Below are positions 541 to 64,000 of a stretch of 64,000 nt of DNA, in pieces. The notes under the pieces are model-generated. The model saw only the letters and a list, made by a program, of their open reading frames with translations. It was not told where the DNA came from and ran no database searches. Location of the stretch: positions 868,001 through 932,000 of the forward strand of contig NZ_CP152389.1 of the NCBI RefSeq assembly GCF_038806765.1. The letters are read 5' to 3'. How positions within the stretch are numbered: the stretch's first letter is position 1; the number at the start of each line of letters is the position of its first letter. Made by a program: the position numbers and the translations under genes. Source of the stretch: Mucilaginibacter sp. CSA2-8R (GTDB lineage Bacteria; Bacteroidota; Bacteroidia; Sphingobacteriales; Sphingobacteriaceae).

Positions 541-1818
541 ATGACGTTGAACAGAACTTTGGCGCCTGTATATCAGGCAATTGATCATATCAGTCTTATT
601 GAGCCAGGACATACACAATTGCCTAACGGTTGTAAAGTGTATTGGTTTAACTCCGGCGACCAGGACTTGCTGCGCATGGAGTTGATTTTTGGTAATCTGC
701 GTTTTGATCCGGCCAAGCCATTATTAAACATGGCAGTAAACACTATGCTTACCGAGGGTACGTCGGCCTTATCGGCCACCCAAATAGCCGATAAAATTGA
801 CTACTATGGTGCTTTTTTACAGGCGGAGTATGGCTATGATAACTCACAGCTTACGCTTTACAGTTTAAACCGCCATTTAGAGCACACCTTGCCGGTTATT
901 AAAGATATATTAACGGATAGCCAGTTTCCCGAAAATGAATTGGATACCTATATCCGTAACCAGCAGCAAAAGTTACAGGTGAGCCTTCAAAAAAACGATA
1001 TTCTGGCGCGCAGGGCTTTTAACCGGGCGGTGTACGGCAACTCCATTTATGGCTTAAGCGCCGATGCCGGGCATTACCAGCAACTGCAACGGGCTGATAT
1101 GCTGGCGCACTTTAAGCAAATGTATCAGCCGGCTAATTGTACCCTGGTAATTGCCGGTAAAGCCGATGAAGTTGCTTTAAATCAAATTATAGCTGCTTTT
1201 AGCAATTGGGAAAATACGGCTGAACCAGCTGATGTAAGCCAGCAGCTTATTGAGCCTTTAACGGACCGTTTTTACTTTACCGAGAAACCAGACGCATTGC
1301 AGTCGGCCATCCGCATGGGACTACCTATGGTTAACCGTACCCATCCTGATTTCCCGGCCTTGCAGGTACTTAATACTGTTTTAGGCGGTTATTTTGGATC
1401 ACGTTTGATGGCTAACATTCGCGAGGATAAGGGTTATACCTATGGCATAGGTTCTGGTATTTCATCGCTTAAATATGGCAGTGCGTTTTTTATTGCTACT
1501 GAGGTAGGTGCCGATGTTTGCCGTAGTGCGGTAAATGAAATCGAGAAAGAAATTAACCTGCTAAGAACCGAACCCATAAGCGAAGAAGAACTTTCGTTAG
1601 TGCGTAACTACATGTTGGGTTCTTTACTCGGCAGTTTGGAAAACGTGTTTTCGCATGCTGATAAGTTTAAAAACGTTTACTTTTCGGGTTTAAATTATGA
1701 CTATTACAGCCGTTACACCGAAATTGTAAAATCTGTTACGGCCGAAGAACTGCTTGCATTAGCCAACCATTACTGGAACTTCGACGAGTTCTACAAAGTA
1801 GTTGTCGGAAAATATTAA
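541..1818 (+). CDS. M16 family peptidase, non-catalytic partner subunit
   Basis: This 425-residue protein has the two-lobed M16B layout. At about residue 65, where an active member has HxxEH, it reads LLNMAVNTM, so the zinc ligands are absent. The C-terminal lobe keeps a glycine-rich tract (residues about 278-310, with VLGGYFGSRL and REDKGYTYGIGSG) typical of the substrate-gripping half. No signal peptide is evident. It follows the other M16 gene by five bases. M16B heterodimers of one HxxEH subunit and one degenerate subunit are established; membership here is inferred from sequence and context. Confidence 0.9.
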   Translation: MTLNRTLAPVYQAIDHISLIEPGHTQLPNGCKVYWFNSGDQDLLRMELIFGNLRFDPAKPLLNMAVNTMLTEGTSALSATQIADKIDYYGAFLQAEYGYDNSQLTLYSLNRHLEHTLPVIKDILTDSQFPENELDTYIRNQQQKLQVSLQKNDILARRAFNRAVYGNSIYGLSADAGHYQQLQRADMLAHFKQMYQPANCTLVIAGKADEVALNQIIAAFSNWENTAEPADVSQQLIEPLTDRFYFTEKPDALQSAIRMGLPMVNRTHPDFPALQVLNTVLGGYFGSRLMANIREDKGYTYGIGSGISSLKYGSAFFIATEVGADVCRSAVNEIEKEINLLRTEPISEEELSLVRNYMLGSLLGSLENVFSHADKFKNVYFSGLNYDYYSRYTEIVKSVTAEELLALANHYWNFDEFYKVVVGKY

Positions 1819-1855
1819 TATTTCGCCTGCGGTTTCGAAGGCGATATGTTGTTAT

Positions 1856-1898
1856 ATATGCCAATGTCCAATAATGTAGTGCATTGGCATATTTTCGT
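1856..1898 (+). terminator. Terminator of the M16 pair
   Basis: A perfect 11-bp inverted repeat (1856-1866 with 1882-1892) around a 15-base loop is followed by TTTTCGTTT, about 40 bases after the M16 stop codon. Confidence 0.7.
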
Positions 1899-1957
1899 TT
1901 CATTGGCTGCAATTTGTCATTTAAGTTTAAACTAAATAGGCAATTGCAGGGCATTAG

Positions 1958-3490
<1,533 letters not shown>

Positions 3491-9891: not shown

Positions 9892-11871
9892 TTGAAAAAA
9901 AATAATACCATAAGCTTAAAACGTACCAACATTAATGGGTGGTTTTTCTTGCTGTTGGTATGTTTATTAATGGCAGGCAGCTCATTATCTTATGCTGCCA
10001 ACGTGGCCGAAAAGCATCCCCGGATTATTGCTTTAGTTGATTCGCTTAACGAGCAGGCGTCGCCATTGATCAGGTTAGATCCTGGTAAAGCATTTACACT
10101 GCTTACCGAGGCTGAAATACTGGCTACCCAATATAACTATAGCAAGGGGCGTGCGGTGGCTTACCTTAACCAGGCCGAGGTGTTGAATCAGCGCGGTTAC
10201 TCTACCCGCGCACTCGAATTGTATTATCGCTCCATGCAATTGAGCCGCCAAAATCGTGATGTGTATAATATTGCCCGTGCTGAGCAGTACATCAGTACTA
10301 TTAAACGTAAGGGCGGCAGCTTCAAAGAAGCAGAAGATTTATTGAACCATACTCTCGAAACTTTTTCGGATTTAAATAAGCCGGTTGATATGGTTAATAT
10401 TCAGCTTAAGCTTGGCTTGTTGTATGCCGAACAAAAAAACTTTGATAAAGCCATGGCCTATTATAACATGGCTTATAATCTGAGTACAAAAATTAAATAT
10501 CCGTACGGACAAAAAAGAAGTTTTTACAATCGTGCTATATTGTACGAAGAAATGCACAAGCCTGAGGATGCTATTAACTATCTAAACAAAGGTTTGCTTA
10601 TTGACAGCCTTTCGGGCGATACTAACGGCAAAGCTTTAACTTACATTGAGCTGAGCAGGGTTTACATCCGGAACAAAAAATATAAAGAAGCCCTGCCTTA
10701 CGCCATACTGGCGTATAACAAAGCCGATAGCTGTGCAGCTATGGGTTTGGTGAAAACAGCCGTGCAGTTGTTGTTAAACATCAGCAAAGCATCGGTAGAT
10801 AAAGACGCCATTATACAATGGCAGGACGAACTTATTTACGTAGACAATTTAATTAACGACCGCGAGCGCAAGCAAGCTAATGATTTTATTGATGCTTTGC
10901 GCGCCCAGGAAGAACAGCAGCTTAAGGTGCAGCAAAGTGTTTTAATGGCCGAAAAGAAAGCCCAGCAGCAAAAAAATCAGATTGTTGTTTATATCGGTGC
11001 TTTATTGTGTTCGGCTGTTATTGTGTTGACATTACTTTACAACTATAAAAAAGCCAAGCAAAAAAATGCCAAGCTAAATGCGCAGAAACAGCAGATTGAA
11101 CGGCAGATTGGCATGCTGGATAAGCTTAACCGCGAAGTGCTTAGTCAAAATCAAAAATTGGAAGATGATAATGTGCTTAAAAGTAAGTTGTTGTCTATCA
11201 TTAGTCATGATTTGCGTAAACCGTTGGCCAACACCCAAAGCATCCTGCACTTGGTTAACGCAGGTTTAGTATCTGAACGTGAAACCAAAGATTTATTTAA
11301 ACATTTAGAAGCGCAGTACAGCCGGGTAATGACCCTGACTGATAACCTGCTGTTTTGGATACGCGGACAAGTAAGCGGGGCACCCGTTAAAAAGGAAACC
11401 GTTAATCTGCACGACACGGTGAATAACATTATTGAAGAAACGGTAATGCCGATTAGTGAGAAAGGGCTTGAAGTGCAAAACCATTTACCTGCCGAGCTGG
11501 CTTGGGTAACCGAAAACGAAACGCTGAAAATAATTTTACGTAACCTCATAAACAACGCCGTGAAATTTACCCCTGTTAACGGAGTAATTGCGTTTAGCGG
11601 TGATGTGAATGATAACGAGACTCATCTAACCATTACAGATAGCGGTATTGGCATTAGCCCCGCCATGATGGAGCAAATTAACAGTGAAAGCTATTACACT
11701 ACCAAAGGAACGCAGAACGAGGAAGGCAGCGGTTTTGGTTTGATGCTCATCAGAGATTTGTTGAAAAAGCAAAACGGCAGGCTTAAAATTAACAGCAAAC
11801 CCGGTGAGGGCAGTGCCTTTACCATCAGCTTTCCGGCGGTAACCGCTATTTTACCAGTAGTTGCTTTGTAA
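9892..11871 (+). CDS. TPR-containing sensor histidine kinase
   Basis: The 659-residue membrane kinase starts at a TTG codon. That start supplies the basic n-region of the signal peptide (about 1-35), which the next in-frame ATG would cut. A periplasmic array of about six TPR repeats (about 50-300) precedes a coiled coil with a membrane segment at about 366-386. The dimerisation box has phospho-acceptor His439 in ISHDLRKPLANTQ. The ATPase domain shows an N box (LRNLINNAVKF), a G1 box (DSGIGI) and a G2 box (GSGFGL). No response regulator is adjacent, so it is an orphan, and its signal is unknown. Confidence 0.92.
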   Translation: MKKNNTISLKRTNINGWFFLLLVCLLMAGSSLSYAANVAEKHPRIIALVDSLNEQASPLIRLDPGKAFTLLTEAEILATQYNYSKGRAVAYLNQAEVLNQRGYSTRALELYYRSMQLSRQNRDVYNIARAEQYISTIKRKGGSFKEAEDLLNHTLETFSDLNKPVDMVNIQLKLGLLYAEQKNFDKAMAYYNMAYNLSTKIKYPYGQKRSFYNRAILYEEMHKPEDAINYLNKGLLIDSLSGDTNGKALTYIELSRVYIRNKKYKEALPYAILAYNKADSCAAMGLVKTAVQLLLNISKASVDKDAIIQWQDELIYVDNLINDRERKQANDFIDALRAQEEQQLKVQQSVLMAEKKAQQQKNQIVVYIGALLCSAVIVLTLLYNYKKAKQKNAKLNAQKQQIERQIGMLDKLNREVLSQNQKLEDDNVLKSKLLSIISHDLRKPLANTQSILHLVNAGLVSERETKDLFKHLEAQYSRVMTLTDNLLFWIRGQVSGAPVKKETVNLHDTVNNIIEETVMPISEKGLEVQNHLPAELAWVTENETLKIILRNLINNAVKFTPVNGVIAFSGDVNDNETHLTITDSGIGISPAMMEQINSESYYTTKGTQNEEGSGFGLMLIRDLLKKQNGRLKINSKPGEGSAFTISFPAVTAILPVVAL

Positions 11872-58995: not shown

Positions 58996-59465
58996 TTATG
59001 CTCCTGCCATTGGCTTTGCTGCTGCTCCAGCAACAGCTCCGTTTGCCAAACCAATATATTTGCTTCCAACCGGAACAACAAAGTTTTTTATTTTTCCAAT
59101 TGCAACCGCGTATCCATGGCCGTCACATGTAACCCTGATAGCAGGTTATCGCCAGTAACCATCATAATAGCAGATAATAACGTACCGTTAAAAATTTCTG
59201 CTTTATTTTCAAGCACTTCTATATGGATATTTTGTTGTTTGGCCTGCTTCACCTCCAAGCCACCCTCCATGCCAAAATGCGTATGGTTGTTCATAGCTTG
59301 TTTATTTTGGTATTCATAACGTTTTAAAAAAGTGTAGCTTTCATCAATAATTGACAGTGCCATGCGGCAGCCTATATCCATACTTACTGCATATGGAATC
59401 ACCGCATTATCAGTAGCCAGTACCCCGCCAATGGGGAGGTCAAAATCCATGTGCGCGTCGGGCAT
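58996..59465 (-). pseudogene. Chimeric shard: RtcB RNA-ligase fragment joined to an unknown C-terminus
   Basis: The first 73 codons from 59465 (MPDAHMDFDLPIGGVLAT, VSMDIGCRM, HTHFGMEGGLEVKQ) are clearly an internal piece of a Bacteroidota RtcB RNA ligase, which normally exceeds 400 residues. From about 59246 downward the sequence switches to an unrelated stretch. After a stop at 59088, another frame continues (FVVPVGSKYIGLANGAVAG) to a stop at 58996. Both ends of the RtcB piece are abrupt. It is non-functional as an RNA ligase. Confidence 0.75.
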
Positions 59466-59557
59466 TCTGTACCGACTCGCACGTAACTACGCAATTTACA
59501 AACGATGAATTTGTGGAAGTGAGAAGCCTGGCAAAATTAATTTGCGAAGCATTGTAA
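59465..59557 (+). pseudogene. C-terminal remnant of an unidentified protein
   Basis: An open stretch of 30 codons with coding character (FTNDEFVEVRSLAKLICEAL) ends at a stop at 59557. It has no start and abuts the RtcB shard head to head at about 59,463. Confidence 0.35.
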
Positions 59558-59576
59558 TGAACGGATTAATCAACTG

Positions 59577-60335
59577 TTACGTCGCACGCGTCGCATCGCC
59601 TGAACACAATAAATTGTTTTTAAGTCCCTTAAACTCGCCAGGCATTTCCCAGGTTTTCGCATAATCGAATATTTCGTTTGAGGCGACTTCCCAAGGTACG
59701 TTATTGAAAAGACATTCGCCGATGATCTCGCCATCGGCTCTTTTAGAAATGTAGATCTTTAGCCAGTTTATTTTATTAGTGGTTAGCTGGTTAGGTATCT
59801 CACTTTTTAATAAGTCATAAAGTGGTTCGCCGGTAGGGTATTCGTTCCACTGTCCCTGAGCATTTAAAGTTCCTAAGTTCGGATGCCACAAAACGTCTTT
59901 GCAATTTACTATTGTTATGAAATCAAGATCAGGATCATGACTATCCGTAAAACTATCCATTATGGTTACAAAGGTTGAATTGATATAATTATCTAAAGCA
60001 GTATTCGTTTGCTCCTCAAATGAATAACCTGCCCCTACAACGCTCTCTATTATTCCGTCGGGGAAATACGTTTGATGAGATGCAGCCACCATTAAATGCA
60101 TAATATTGGGATGATTGTCCAGATTTTCCACCACCATAAAACTTATTTCCAGTTCATCATTTACAATAAGGGCCAGGTATTGTGCATGCCTTTTAACATC
60201 GTAGCCCATTTCAATAAGCCTGGCCTCAAAGGCAATTAATACGTTCCAGTTTTTGTTAATGTAAGGCGTGTCGTTTTGCTGTACAGGCTGATCGGTATCT
60301 GCTGTTTTCTTTTTTAAAAAATCAAATAAACCCAT
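59577..60335 (-). CDS. DUF6348-like cytoplasmic protein
   Basis: The intact 252-residue frame begins MGLFDFLKKK and shows WNVLIAFEARLIEMGYDVKR, NHPNIMHLMVAA and KINWLKIYISKRADG. I believe it matches DUF6348, a small Bacteroidota family sometimes found with toxin-immunity type loci, but this is from memory of its pattern. It is one of few intact genes in the island. The neighbouring ADP-ribosylglycohydrolase piece lies 17 bases upstream on the same strand. Confidence 0.65.
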   Translation of the reverse strand: MGLFDFLKKKTADTDQPVQQNDTPYINKNWNVLIAFEARLIEMGYDVKRHAQYLALIVNDELEISFMVVENLDNHPNIMHLMVAASHQTYFPDGIIESVVGAGYSFEEQTNTALDNYINSTFVTIMDSFTDSHDPDLDFITIVNCKDVLWHPNLGTLNAQGQWNEYPTGEPLYDLLKSEIPNQLTTNKINWLKIYISKRADGEIIGECLFNNVPWEVASNEIFDYAKTWEMPGEFKGLKNNLLCSGDATRAT

Positions 60336-60351
60336 CCTAATTACTTAAATA

Positions 60352-60699
60352 TTACTGCACAGCTTTAAACATTCTAACAGAAAGATCGTCAATATCATTT
60401 TTACGGGCAAGTTGACTTAACCAATGCTGAGGGATACTCTCAAGGCCGTATAATAGTCCCGCAAGACCGCCTGTTACGGCACCTGTTGTATCTGTATCTT
60501 GTCCTAAATTAACGGCTTTTAAAACAGCATCTTTATAATTGTCTGTATTTAGCAGGCACCAAATGCTGGCTTCCAATGTATGCAATACATATCCGCTGCT
60601 GCGAATTTGATTTTCGGGTATTATATCTATCCTGTCGATGAGCAACCGGTCAAATAAACTCGTTTCGTCCCTACTCATATTTATCGATATACACTTCAT
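60352..60699 (-). pseudogene. ADP-ribosylglycohydrolase, C-terminal fragment
   Basis: The last 100 or so residues of an ADP-ribosylglycohydrolase are visible: SSGYVLHTLEASIWCLL, AVNLGQDTDTTGAVTGGLAGLLYG. The aspartates of GQDTDTTGA are the second metal-binding motif, but the N-terminal catalytic motif is missing because the gene is cut near 60,680. The family removes ADP-ribose from proteins or DNA. As it stands it should be inactive. Confidence 0.85.
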
Positions 60700-61159
60700 T
60701 AATGATTATAACCTGGAGTATGATTTAGCTAAATGCCGTGGCCTCATCGACTACGTTTCTTATATCGAAAAAAATGGGGTAAAAGTAGATGGCATTGGTA
60801 CGCAAATGCATATAAATTCAAATTGGGACAGGTCTAAAATTGATGAGATGTTCAGGTTGCTTGCTGCCACTGGTAAACTGATTAAGGTTTCTGAGTTAGA
60901 CATGGGCATAGCAGGCAAAAAGACGCCGGTTATCACCGCCGCCGAATATGCAGAACAGAAGGACATGTATAAGTATGTAATCGAAAAATACTTTGAAATC
61001 ATTCCTAAGGCTCAACAATATGGTATTTGTATATGGAGCCCATTAGACAGCCCTGCAAACTCGTCTTGGCGAGCCGGAGAACCCATTGGCTTATGGAGCG
61101 AAGGGTTTGTTCGTAAACCTGCCTATGTTGGAGTTGTTGATGCTCTCTCTAAAAAGTAA
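60692..61159 (+). pseudogene. GH10 endo-beta-1,4-xylanase, C-terminal fragment
   Basis: From FINDYNLEYD onward the frame is the C-terminal half of a GH10 xylanase. It has VDGIGTQMHI, the nucleophile Glu in VSELDMG, and GICIWSPLDSPANSSW, ending with a normal stop and a terminator. The N-terminal half, with the acid/base Glu, is absent. Codons before 60,692 are antisense of the ADP-ribosylglycohydrolase remnant, so the join is sharp. Confidence 0.85.
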
Positions 61160-61177
61160 AAAATTGTGAATGTTTAG

Positions 61178-61212
61178 AAAAGCACAGCGTATTTTATGTA
61201 CACTGTGCTTTT
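61178..61212 (+). terminator. Terminator after the GH10 remnant
   Basis: A 10-bp stem (61178-61187 with 61203-61212) with a 15-base loop ends in TTTTTCG. Confidence 0.7.
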
Positions 61213-61317
61213 TCGTGATTATTATATAGAGCACGATTTTCTACCAGTTGTGGATCTGACGAATCGAGCAGTTGATAAATCTAACTTCAATATTTTAATT
61301 GAAATATATCGTTATCA

Positions 61318-61360
61318 AAAGAGAAGCAAATTAGGATAAATCTCGATTTTGCTTCTCTTT
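61318..61360. terminator. Terminator-like hairpin
   Basis: A perfect 13-bp stem (61318-61330 with 61348-61360) has a 17-base loop. No gene obviously ends here, so its role is unclear. Confidence 0.4.
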
Positions 61361-61479
61361 GTATCCTTTGAAAATCAGCTGCTGAAGAGGACGAAAAGCC
61401 TTAACTTGAAACGGTCAGACTATCGCCCACCTGTTATTATTAAACCGCAGACCCTTAGGCCATTCTATCCTTTGATACA

Positions 61480-61870
61480 GGTCGAGAGCCAAACAATTTA
61501 TGCTTGGAACCGGATGTGCGTAAATGAGGCCCTTAATTACTGAGCGGGCACGGACAGCTAAGAAATGAATCAACTTAAAGAGTTGGGAGTATAAGCTGAA
61601 GCTTAAGTATGAGGAGCTGGCCTTATAGCACAGCGTGTAAAAAAAGAGTTTACCAAAAAAAGGTATTAAAGTCCTGTTAGCTCAGGAAGGTAGTTCAGTT
61701 ACCAAACAGATTTTTTTCAGCTAAAGATTAGCAGGTCCTTTAAGCTGATAAAGTTATCCCAATCCATCTGTTACTATAAATATGTCAATGATGATACTGA
61801 AACTCTTGATCAGCTACCAAACAATATACTTTTTTTAAATAGGTTTTTGTACTATTTCGGTGTAATTTAA
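61480..61870 (+). mobile_element. Decayed IS3-family transposase remnant
   Basis: Read across frames, the strand shows pieces with the order and spacing of IS3-family OrfA then OrfB: SQTIYAWNRM (as TFYNWK in helix-turn-helix OrfA), MNQLKEL with WEYKLKLKYEELAL (leucine zipper), KKSLPKKGIKVLLAQEGSSV, and LSQSICYYKYVNDDTETLDQLP (start of OrfB). At least five stops or frameshifts break it, and the DDE domain is missing. No terminal repeats were found. Confidence 0.55.
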
Positions 61871-61897
61871 CTAGATGTATTATTTATCTACACTTTG

Positions 61898-61928
61898 TTG
61901 TTTTTTTAGAAAAGCAGTACTATCTTAG
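61898..61928 (+). promoter_or_regulatory. Candidate promoter of the precursor-peptide gene
   Basis: TTG (61898-61900), a 20-base spacer and TATCTTAG (61921-61928) match the Bacteroidota consensus with one mismatch in TAnnTTTG. Confidence 0.45.
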
Positions 61929-61939
61929 GGCATGCCGAG

Positions 61940-61960
61940 GCTAATCCACTATGGATTAGC
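61940..61960 (+). promoter_or_regulatory. Leader hairpin before the precursor-peptide gene
   Basis: A perfect 8-bp stem (61940-61947 with 61953-61960) with a 5-base loop lies in the predicted untranslated leader, 20 bases before the ATG. Confidence 0.5.
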
Positions 61961-61980
61961 GGGATGCTACTAAACTTATT

Positions 61981-62163
61981 ATGAAATTAAAGCTAACAAG
62001 CCTGTTGAAAAAAGGTGAGGAATCACAACCAAAAACGTTAAGAAGGGAAGATATGATCAAATTCACTGGTGGTTACGCCACTGGTGGGTATACCCATACG
62101 GTCACCGAAGTAGTGATGACTGACGGTGTGTATTATGATGCGACTGATGCAACCCAAGATTGA
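61981..62163 (+). CDS. Candidate modified-peptide (RiPP) precursor with double-glycine leader
   Basis: This 60-residue peptide has a charged leader (residues 1-31) ending in LRREDMIKFTGG. That layout (LSxEEMKxIxGG) is the common leader of Bacteroidota natural-product and bacteriocin precursors cut after the double glycine. The presumed core, residues 32-60, is rich in Tyr, Thr, Asp and Val and has no Cys or Lys, so it is not a lanthipeptide; Thr and Asp content would suit ester or amide cross-linking. The frame is intact amid decayed genes, with promoter, leader hairpin and terminator. No modifying enzyme is intact in the window. Confidence 0.6.
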   Translation: MKLKLTSLLKKGEESQPKTLRREDMIKFTGGYATGGYTHTVTEVVMTDGVYYDATDATQD

Positions 62164-62168
62164 TTTTC

Positions 62169-62210
62169 AAATTAAAAGGTTGCCTGAAAAGTAACCTTTT
62201 AATTTTTTTT
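62169..62210 (+). terminator. Terminator of the precursor-peptide gene
   Basis: A perfect 13-bp stem (62169-62181 with 62193-62205) with an 11-base loop runs into eight T residues, starting five bases after the stop codon. It is a textbook intrinsic terminator. Confidence 0.9.
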
Positions 62211-62318
62211 CATATACTATTCTTAATACAACTCTCATCGGCCGGATTCAAATCTCAATTTGCATTGTTCCTGCGAACCGCTTGGAACATTCACGTTGTA
62301 TGCTATAAAATACAATAA

Positions 62319-63334
62319 ATGAGGTCAAAAGTAATCTTAGCTACGAAAAAATTGCTGGGTTGTAATGCTCAAAATGAAATGGAACCTTTGGTAAGAAGCA
62401 ATTTCGCCGATGCCGTTAAAAGTGGAAGACTGGTTTACTGTGAAACTTTCGAGCCGAAAAAGTTCATTTATAGTCATTCAAGAAAAATAGCATTCAGGCG
62501 AAGTGGAAGCGATATCGTCTGTAATTTAAATGCGGATTACTTTTTAGAGTCGGAGCTTATCAAATTTACCATAGAGCGCTTTGTTTATGACGCCAATTTG
62601 TTTCAACTCCCTTGGATGTTAACGCTAGTGAAAATGATTCTGTGATCCCGGGTGAAGCGTGCATTATCAAAGCTGGCTTTATACGCATCAAGGGATTTGA
62701 AGAAAGGATAAACATAAATGGATTTGAAGATATTGATTTATTCTATCGCCTTATGCTGGTTGGTATAGCGCCTACAGATTATGGAGCCTAAACACTTAGA
62801 GTTTTATTTATCACTCTGACGGGAATAGACATTCGTCTGATAAGATAACGGAATGCGTTAAAAACATATACCTTAACCATATCGATTCCAGAACCTTTAA
62901 TATTCTGATTTTATATAAAGACAATTTTTTCGAAAACGGATAAATTATTGATCATACTGTCAAAAACGCACATGATCATAGTTGTGCTTATCTTGAAATG
63001 AATTGTTCCTTTTTCAAAGCTGGATCGCACTCTGAAAAGGAAAATGGCATGATGATTATGAAAGACTGCATTTACTTGTCGACAGCAATTAGGTTCACCA
63101 TTCATTCTCGTTTAAAGCTAAATCTACTGAAAGTTTGAGGAATGGTGGACTTTCTTTAAAATGCGGAGTGGCCTCAAGACTCAAATAGCTTCTTTTAATT
63201 ACGTTTACATCAACAGTCATTTATTCCTTAGAGATAAAAAAGACAAAAAATTATTATCAACCGATATGGATTCGGATACGATTTGTATTAAAAAATTTCA
63301 ATTACAAGCGGTTGATTTCAATATAATCTCCTGA
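62319..63334 (+). pseudogene. Glycosyltransferase (GT2/galactosyltransferase-related), frameshifted
   Basis: The first frame (to 62645) carries a GT-A-like DIVCNLNADYF motif. After a frameshift near 62,615 the second frame has GEACIIKAGFIRIKGFEE and INGFEDIDLFYRL, typical of galactosyltransferase-related proteins, up to a stop at 62791. Coding traces go on in a third frame (DKITECVKNIYLNHID, HSCAYLEMNCSFFKAG) and in a final one (63134-63334, FNYVYINSHLFLRDKKDKK). At least four lesions make it inactive. Such transferases often accompany peptide-modification loci in Bacteroidota. Confidence 0.65.
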
Positions 63335-63335
63335 A

Positions 63336-63791
63336 ATGAAGCTAGAAGAACTTACTCATTTGTCAATTTCTTATTTTTGCCCACAACGATATTGGAGTAA
63401 TTTAATTGAAGAGGGAATTTTGCCTTTTTTTTAGCCAGTCGCTTGGAACGTACAAAGGCTTATTTATTAGCGCTGAGTTTCAACAAAGGCGATAATAAAT
63501 AAGCCTTTGTACTGACCCTTCCAGCAACAGGAAAATGGCTCAGGCATCCGATAATTTTTTTACAAAATATTTTGTTTATAACCAATTTCAGGTACTGATG
63601 AGCTTGCCTTGTCTATTTGTGCAATTGAGCCAGCCAAAATAGTATTTTTGCCGCTAGCAAGCAATTATATATGTTCTGGTCTTTTGAGCAGAGTTTTTAT
63701 TTTGAATATGAACAAATTAAAATCTCAAAGCTACTTGAATTTTCAAGTTCAATTTACTGAATTCATTTTGAAAGATATTGGTGATCATTAG
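63336..63791 (+). pseudogene. Broken gene of uncertain family following the glycosyltransferase
   Basis: An ATG at 63336, one base after the previous stop, opens a frame (LSISYFCPQRYWSNLIEEGILPFF) that stops at 63434. Coding-like pieces follow in other frames (ERTKAYLLALSFNKGDN, then ALSICAIEPAKIVFLPLASNYICSGL to 63791). The pattern loosely recalls the thiopeptide-type biosynthesis domain of lanthipeptide dehydratases, but I cannot establish this. It holds the 20-bp inverted repeat noted separately. Confidence 0.4.
63450..63512. repeat. Perfect 20-bp inverted repeat inside the broken gene
   Basis: Arms 63450-63469 and 63493-63512 are exact reverse complements, with a 23-base spacer. The left arm lies in coding-like sequence; the right arm interrupts it with stops. 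Confidence 0.8.
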
Positions 63792-63847
63792 GTTATAGTG
63801 ACGTATTTTTAACATTTGCGGTGCTTTTGTATTTTGCTTCGATAACT

Positions 63848-64000
63848 ATGTTCTGGATAAATCGCGCTGTGTACATGAAAAGCAAGTATCAAGTTTCCTC
63901 CCATTCAGGTTCTGCTTACGAGGAAGTTTTCAAAAAGCAAGCATTAGAGGAAATAGTCGATGATCTATCTAATGGCAAAGGGTCGTTGGAAAAAAATTGG
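63848..64000 (+). CDS. 5' part of an unidentified gene running off the window
   Basis: The frame is open from a stop at about 63,785 to the window end. Starts at 63848 or 63875 are possible. The visible residues (MKSKYQVSSHSGSAYEEVFKKQALEEIVDDLSNG, in two pieces for length: MKSKYQVSSHSGS and AYEEVFKKQALEEIVDD) are hydrophilic. A hydrophobic stretch lies just before the first ATG, so the true start may be further upstream. No family was recognised. Confidence 0.35.
   Translation, partial: MFWINRAVYMKSKYQVSSHSGSAYEEVFKKQALEEIVDDLSNGKGSLEKNW

Follow-up and report, generated by a model that had tools for sequence, protein, structure and literature searches.

We describe here the gene of a small peptide, P0001, near the end of a window of 64,000 nucleotides (the whole stretch of DNA that was analysed, positions 868001-932000 of the 5.34-Mb single-contig genome of Mucilaginibacter sp. 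CSA2-8R); the adjoining 30 kb were analysed as well. The gene is a 60-codon open reading frame (ORF) at 61981-62163 on the forward strand, open throughout. Its product of 60 amino acids (aa) consists of a double-glycine leader of 31 aa, with LRREDMIKFTGG as its C-terminal end, and a core of 29 residues free of Cys, as a first-pass annotation of the window had described it. Very probably, its product is a ribosomally made precursor that enzymes turn into a modified peptide of the grasp-with-spasm (graspetide-like) kind of Bacteroidota. Judged by sequence, the gene heads a same-strand cluster in which open genes encode a C39 exporter, an HlyD-type adaptor, an ATP-grasp enzyme, a small protein and a SPASM protein. 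The type of system is itself already described, and P0001 is a new but ordinary member of it.

Export and maturation genes beyond the window edge

Intact same-strand genes begin 239 bases past the window end, 2.1 kb downstream of the P0001 gene, and the ATP-grasp gene lies 6.3 kb from it. The first-pass annotation had taken the precursor gene for a self-contained unit matured by enzymes elsewhere, whereas the enzymes adjoin it on the same strand: the window edge made an ordinary cluster appear as an orphan. The genome does contain the export and maturation genes on which the annotation had made its proposal depend. The genes are as follows, in the numbering of the adjoining stretch L034 (adding 58000 gives the window numbering).

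L034:6239-8440, forward strand: C39 peptidase-ABC exporter, 733 aa (C39 family match)
L034, after the exporter, forward strand: HlyD-type adaptor, open gene
L034:10504-11490, forward strand: ATP-grasp maturase, 328 aa (TIGR04192, 259 bits, cut-off 230)
L034:11504-11713, forward strand: 69-aa protein, overlapping the start of the SPASM gene at 11710
L034:11710-12717, forward strand: SPASM protein, 335 aa (TIGR04193, 316 bits, cut-off 175)
L034:14856-15047: second double-glycine precursor, with a Cys-containing core, directly before the second ATP-grasp gene
L034:15096-19062: second ATP-grasp, SPASM and C39-VKOR genes (TIGR04192, 245 bits; TIGR04193, 326 bits)
L034:16277-17428: second SPASM protein (TIGR04193 family)

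Both ATP-grasp and both SPASM proteins thus exceed the curated cut-offs of TIGR04192 and TIGR04193. A profile built from the first ATP-grasp protein and its ortholog in G164, a relative from the genus, matched the sequences of five solved ATP-grasp peptide ligases, AMdnB (7m4s) and CdnC (7mgv) included. The C39 peptidase family had three matches in the genome, all at 932251-948431 (within 16 kb), namely two exporters and one C39-VKOR protein, the first starting 2.1 kb after the P0001 gene. No NCBIfam family matched the 69-aa protein. The annotation had suggested seeking radical-SAM, ATP-grasp and C39 genes nearby; the latter two kinds are present, but the CxxxCxxC motif was absent from all three SPASM proteins examined (L034:11710-12717, L034:16277-17428 and L099:5481-4489), so that a radical-SAM reaction should not be assumed. 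Further along, a large ORF weakly resembles an outer-membrane protein of G164 (E 4e-8). Next is the second C39 exporter, and after it lie genes for an HlyD-like protein, a LytTR regulator and a LanB-type dehydratase.

The precursor gene and its counterpart in a relative

Among 149 genomes of the genus (that of CSA2-8R included), the best non-self match of the exporter was found in G164, with 77% identity (the next being 58%). The other proteins of the cluster are 65% (ATP-grasp), 69% (SPASM) and 40-42% (HlyD) identical to their G164 counterparts, and the 69-aa protein 64% over 56 aa. The whole genome of G164 has a single TIGR04192 match, located in this cluster. A motif scan of the G164 stretch returned one precursor, MKLKLTNLVKQDESTQPKTLRREEMVKLTGG-YTYLYTGCTNTGDHGDCTDGKFD, and one ATP-grasp/SPASM pair is present there. 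This precursor gene (L099:15548-15384; BLASTP E 1e-16 against P0001) lies 2.1 kb before the exporter gene, the same spacing as for P0001. Just upstream of it, a transposase-like ORF of 419 codons, recognised by eye, splits an apparent single gene (L099:15908-18725).

The features of the P0001 gene and its flanks are given below in window numbering.

61895-61980, forward strand: conserved 5' untranslated region (blastn match to G164)
61925-61973, forward strand: 5' leader hairpin, inner stem 61940-61960 (9 pairs, with 2 pairs beneath)
61981-62163, forward strand: precursor peptide gene, 60 aa (ORF; ortholog L099:15548-15384 in G164)
61981-62073, forward strand: leader, 31 aa, ending in LRREDMIKFTGG (consensus common to P0001 and G164)
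62074-62160, forward strand: core, 29 aa, rich in Tyr, Thr and Asp, no Cys (divergent from the G164 core)
62169-62210, forward strand: intrinsic terminator, stem 62169-62205 with a T run (counterpart in G164)

Comparison by blastn with G164 gave a block (E 6e-20, with identity at 130 of 183 columns) that begins at 61895 and extends through the leader, although the neighbouring genes are saturated at synonymous sites; the match stops within the first core codon, Tyr (Gly-Gly-Tyr). The leader residues common to both precursors are MKLKLTxLxKxxExxQPKTLRRExMxKxTGG. In the leader, the proportion of nonsynonymous differences (pN) was 0.15, versus a proportion of synonymous differences (pS) of 0.72, and in the aligned core codons pN reached 0.42. 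A leader that is kept next to a core that diverges is what would be expected from the precursor of a ribosomally synthesized and post-translationally modified peptide (RiPP). For the exporter, ATP-grasp and SPASM genes, pS was 0.76-0.88, i.e. saturated, and pN 0.13-0.21; HlyD had a pN of 0.35. Together with the 69-aa gene, these four genes are without stops in 1794 codons. The conserved leader, the divergent core and the C39, ATP-grasp and SPASM neighbours support the earlier proposal of a double-glycine precursor of a modified peptide other than a lanthipeptide.

On folding, the whole 5' hairpin (61925-61973) had a minimum free energy of -23.2 kcal/mol and a z-score (z) of -4.9, none of 200 shuffles being equally stable; the terminator stem (62169-62205) had a z of -5.6. 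All 11 inner pairs of the hairpin are kept in G164, two of them with changes on both sides and one with a change on one side, whereas 4 of the 9 outer pairs have no equivalent in the same register. By itself the G164 hairpin is weakly stable (z -1.5, 13 of 200 shuffles being at least as stable). The G164 precursor is also followed by a terminator (z -4.1). Recurrence of hairpin, leader and terminator at the G164 locus is better evidence than the fold scores, and with them it bears out the leader hairpin and terminator of the first-pass annotation. The pattern of the 5' hairpin occurred twice in the own genome (the second time at 2631326) versus not at all for the reversed control, and five times among 142 loci, always in copies of the P0001 or G164 locus. 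A terminator scan of 60500-63500 returned a single site, which is this stem; the count alone proves nothing, because the shuffled region averages 1.9 such sites. The near-consensus promoter of the annotation was not recovered, a sigma-70-type scan giving no site in 61830-61930 and no excess in the scanned region overall (10 sites versus 10.6 in shuffles). The Bacteroidota-type -7 element, TAnnTTTG, fits upstream of P0001 only with one extra base. Rfam had no match at E<=1 in 61700-62320.

Further relatives of P0001 were sought in several ways. The own genome held no paralog, two extra matches (E 1.04 and 1.47) lying inside open frames of 504 and 750 codons. A homologous leader, the lack of which anywhere would have told against the annotation's proposal, does exist in G164. 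A single-sequence search matched 32 of the 149 genus genomes at E<=1, with a best non-self E of 0.043. The matches in L012 and L016 (no ORF of matching frame) and in L019 (overlapping a 133-codon ORF in another frame) were attributed to chance, and the remaining ones were dropped by E-value. Pattern scans of genome contigs matched 157 stretches with P0001, none a relative, and 38 stretches with an alignment of two ATP-grasp proteins, again without a relative, a scan that says little as it used two short patterns only. A profile of both precursors matched 20 of the 149 genomes at E<=0.5; only the own genome (G000) and G164, whose precursors themselves built the profile, fell below 1e-30, the next being at 0.019, and none of four weak rows was a precursor. 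Among 399 genomes of the family (G164 being presumably outside this sample), the same profile gave four matches at E<=0.01: the own genome, L140 and L141, where the match falls within open frames of 250 codons, and finally L142, a different double-glycine peptide with another body (E 0.0027).

Decayed genes around the precursor

The G164 cluster holds additional genes. Between precursor and exporter are two open genes, one for a 367-aa glycosyltransferase of GT2/galactosyltransferase type (Pfam PF02709/PF10111/PF00535) and one for a 291-aa protein without Pfam or NCBIfam family; between the HlyD and ATP-grasp genes are those for an 809-aa outer-membrane protein and a Core-2/I-branching-type glycosyltransferase; and after the SPASM gene comes a DXD-type glycosyltransferase. 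In the own genome, what tblastn recovered of the 291-aa gene and of all three glycosyltransferase genes was no more than pieces spread over several frames; the outer-membrane gene has no close counterpart at that place. Two of these remnants lie in the window.

62246-63247, forward strand: remnant of the GT2/galactosyltransferase-type glycosyltransferase (E 1e-45, tblastn pieces from each of the three forward frames; G164 has an open gene of 367 aa)
63336-64000, forward strand: remnant of a gene without assigned function, which runs on beyond the window (E 3e-21, tblastn pieces from several frames; G164 has an open gene of 291 aa)

Part of the broken neighbours are thus remnants of the cluster, since the same genes are open in G164. 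Upstream, at 59091-61156, genes for RtcB, ADP-ribosylglycohydrolase and GH10 are present in fragments; none of these families was seen in the cluster. Between the fragments lies a 252-codon ORF (59577-60335) with a nearly full DUF6348 match. The annotation had called all surrounding genes broken, which holds for the nearest neighbours in the window but neither for the open DUF6348 ORF nor for the intact genes beyond the edge.

With so much decay, the precursor might be the stranded survivor of a disintegrating cluster and yield no product. We consider this rather unlikely, and it concerns the activity of the gene, being compatible with its identity as a grasp-with-spasm precursor. It would account for the broken GT2-type, 291-codon, Core-2-branching-type and DXD-type genes, for the missing outer-membrane gene and for the fragments among several upstream genes of the window; yet the precursor, exporter, HlyD, ATP-grasp, small-protein and SPASM genes all remain open and have a pN much lower than their pS, and in the 5' hairpin the inner part was kept with compensating changes. 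As pS is saturated, a recent loss of constraint is possible.

Several observations weigh against the assignment of P0001 to a grasp-with-spasm pathway, or at least temper it. A single P0001 ortholog was found, and conservation of the leader rests on one comparison because only two precursors of this family were found. P0001 has no Pfam match, and its NCBIfam match is at chance level (E 0.09, an unrelated family). With several genes of the cluster decayed or missing and HlyD strongly diverged from that of G164, the pathway might be dying. Finally, TxxxTx(6-10)Dx(1-4)D, a core pattern reported in PMC8939145 for another branch of ATP-grasp enzymes, fits both orthologous cores, but also 2976 and 2033 of 20000 shuffled cores, and the second precursor does not fit it; for these two reasons a link pattern is not claimed.

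Relation to known systems and possible product

Grasp-with-spasm (TIGR04192/TIGR04193) corresponds to branch 5 of the graspetide ATP-grasps in PMC8939145. That paper describes ATP-grasp/SPASM loci of Bacteroidetes in which small proteins precede the SPASM gene and the precursors of close relatives differ from one another. The cluster of P0001 resembles these systems by its two enzymes scoring over the cut-offs, its small protein directly before the SPASM gene, its double-glycine precursors, C39 exporter and HlyD, and the strong divergence of precursors between related genomes. The word "undescribed" used by the annotation therefore suits the peptide, which no Pfam or meaningful NCBIfam model matches, but not the type of system. 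Two features set the locus apart from the others: the P0001 precursor stands away from the maturation genes, ahead of the exporter, and the G164 cluster has three glycosyltransferase genes. The microviridin-type graspetides, with their MvdC/MvdD ligases, belong to the same wider ATP-grasp peptide ligase family, but against these models the maturase scores 129 and 130 bits versus cut-offs of 425 and 475, and the leader here is of the Gly-Gly type. TIGR04149 (GG_sam_targ_CFB, precursors of radical S-adenosylmethionine-modified RiPPs) matched the G164 ortholog weakly (E 0.0026, 17.6 bits, cut-off 25), and neither P0001 nor anything else in the own genome.

For comparison, 29 further grasp-with-spasm stretches were used. 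Nine came from the genus, two of these chosen through matches under the family cut-off, and 20 were taken from the 34 class matches that exceed it outside G000 and G089; six of the 29 were shorter than 20 kb (contig ends or requested span). By tblastn at E<=1e-3, a SPASM homolog was found in 28 (the exception being interrupted by a contig end), a C39 exporter homolog in 19, one of them partial. None of the three G164 glycosyltransferases had a homolog in any of the 29, although unrelated glycosyltransferases would escape such a search. A homolog of the G164 GT2-type enzyme (50% identity over the first 178 residues) did occur elsewhere, in L103 (genome G017; 82-606 and 1517-3374), beside genes for a VKOR protein and a double-glycine precursor and near a C39 exporter, and no ATP-grasp maturase homolog was seen there in 20 kb; glycosyltransferases thus accompany such peptides without an ATP-grasp enzyme too, which speaks against exclusivity. 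In another member of the genus (L102:13717-13151 and 9702-9490), three double-glycine precursors near a C39 exporter have nearly identical leaders and differing, Cys-containing cores.

Could P0001 leave the cell through the C39 transporter unmodified, being a plain bacteriocin or signal of the double-glycine type, the ATP-grasp/SPASM pairs serving the second precursor only? The core without Cys would allow it, and of the two ATP-grasp genes only the second was seen to have a precursor directly before it. We nevertheless judge it improbable: in the G164 stretch, with one precursor match and one pair, the pair most simply serves this leader family, and the first pair of the own genome is the ortholog of that pair (65 and 69%). 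A LanB-type lantibiotic dehydratase (Lant_dehydr_N/C; L035:7071-9998, running off the stretch end) lies some 23 kb from the P0001 gene, and its vicinity to grasp-with-spasm genes suggests a larger peptide-biosynthesis island. That P0001, with its Thr-rich core, should be its substrate is very hard to credit, as there is no Cys for lanthionine and no ORF above 809 codons, hence no full-length LanB, in 20 kb around the G164 ortholog.

For a grasp-with-spasm precursor, the following scheme can be proposed. The leader would be bound by the ATP-grasp enzyme, possibly with help from the SPASM and small proteins, and the enzyme, using ATP, would join side chains of core Thr (or Ser/Lys) to those of Asp/Glu, as its family suggests. 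The C39 domain of the exporter would cleave after Gly30-Gly31 during export, releasing the core of 29 residues, lighter by one water for each link. The precursor gene ends in a terminator of its own, which may provide an excess of its transcript over those of the enzyme genes. The ancestral product was perhaps glycosylated too, the genes for this having since decayed in the own genome. One paper, PMC9576775, in which graspetide and glycosyl- terms each recur, could bear on this reading. We suggest, quite tentatively, that the ancestor made a glycosylated graspetide, cross-linked by the ATP-grasp enzyme, decorated by the three cluster glycosyltransferases still open in G164 and exported through the C39 transporter, and that the own genome lost the sugars and kept cross-linking and export. 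The main text of PMC8939145 does not contain the word glycosyltransferase.

P0001 adds to the grasp-with-spasm kind a precursor family that no NCBIfam or Pfam model recognises. Should the peptide be a substrate of the glycosyltransferases, this pair of genomes would offer a natural comparison between a sugar-decorated and a bare graspetide.
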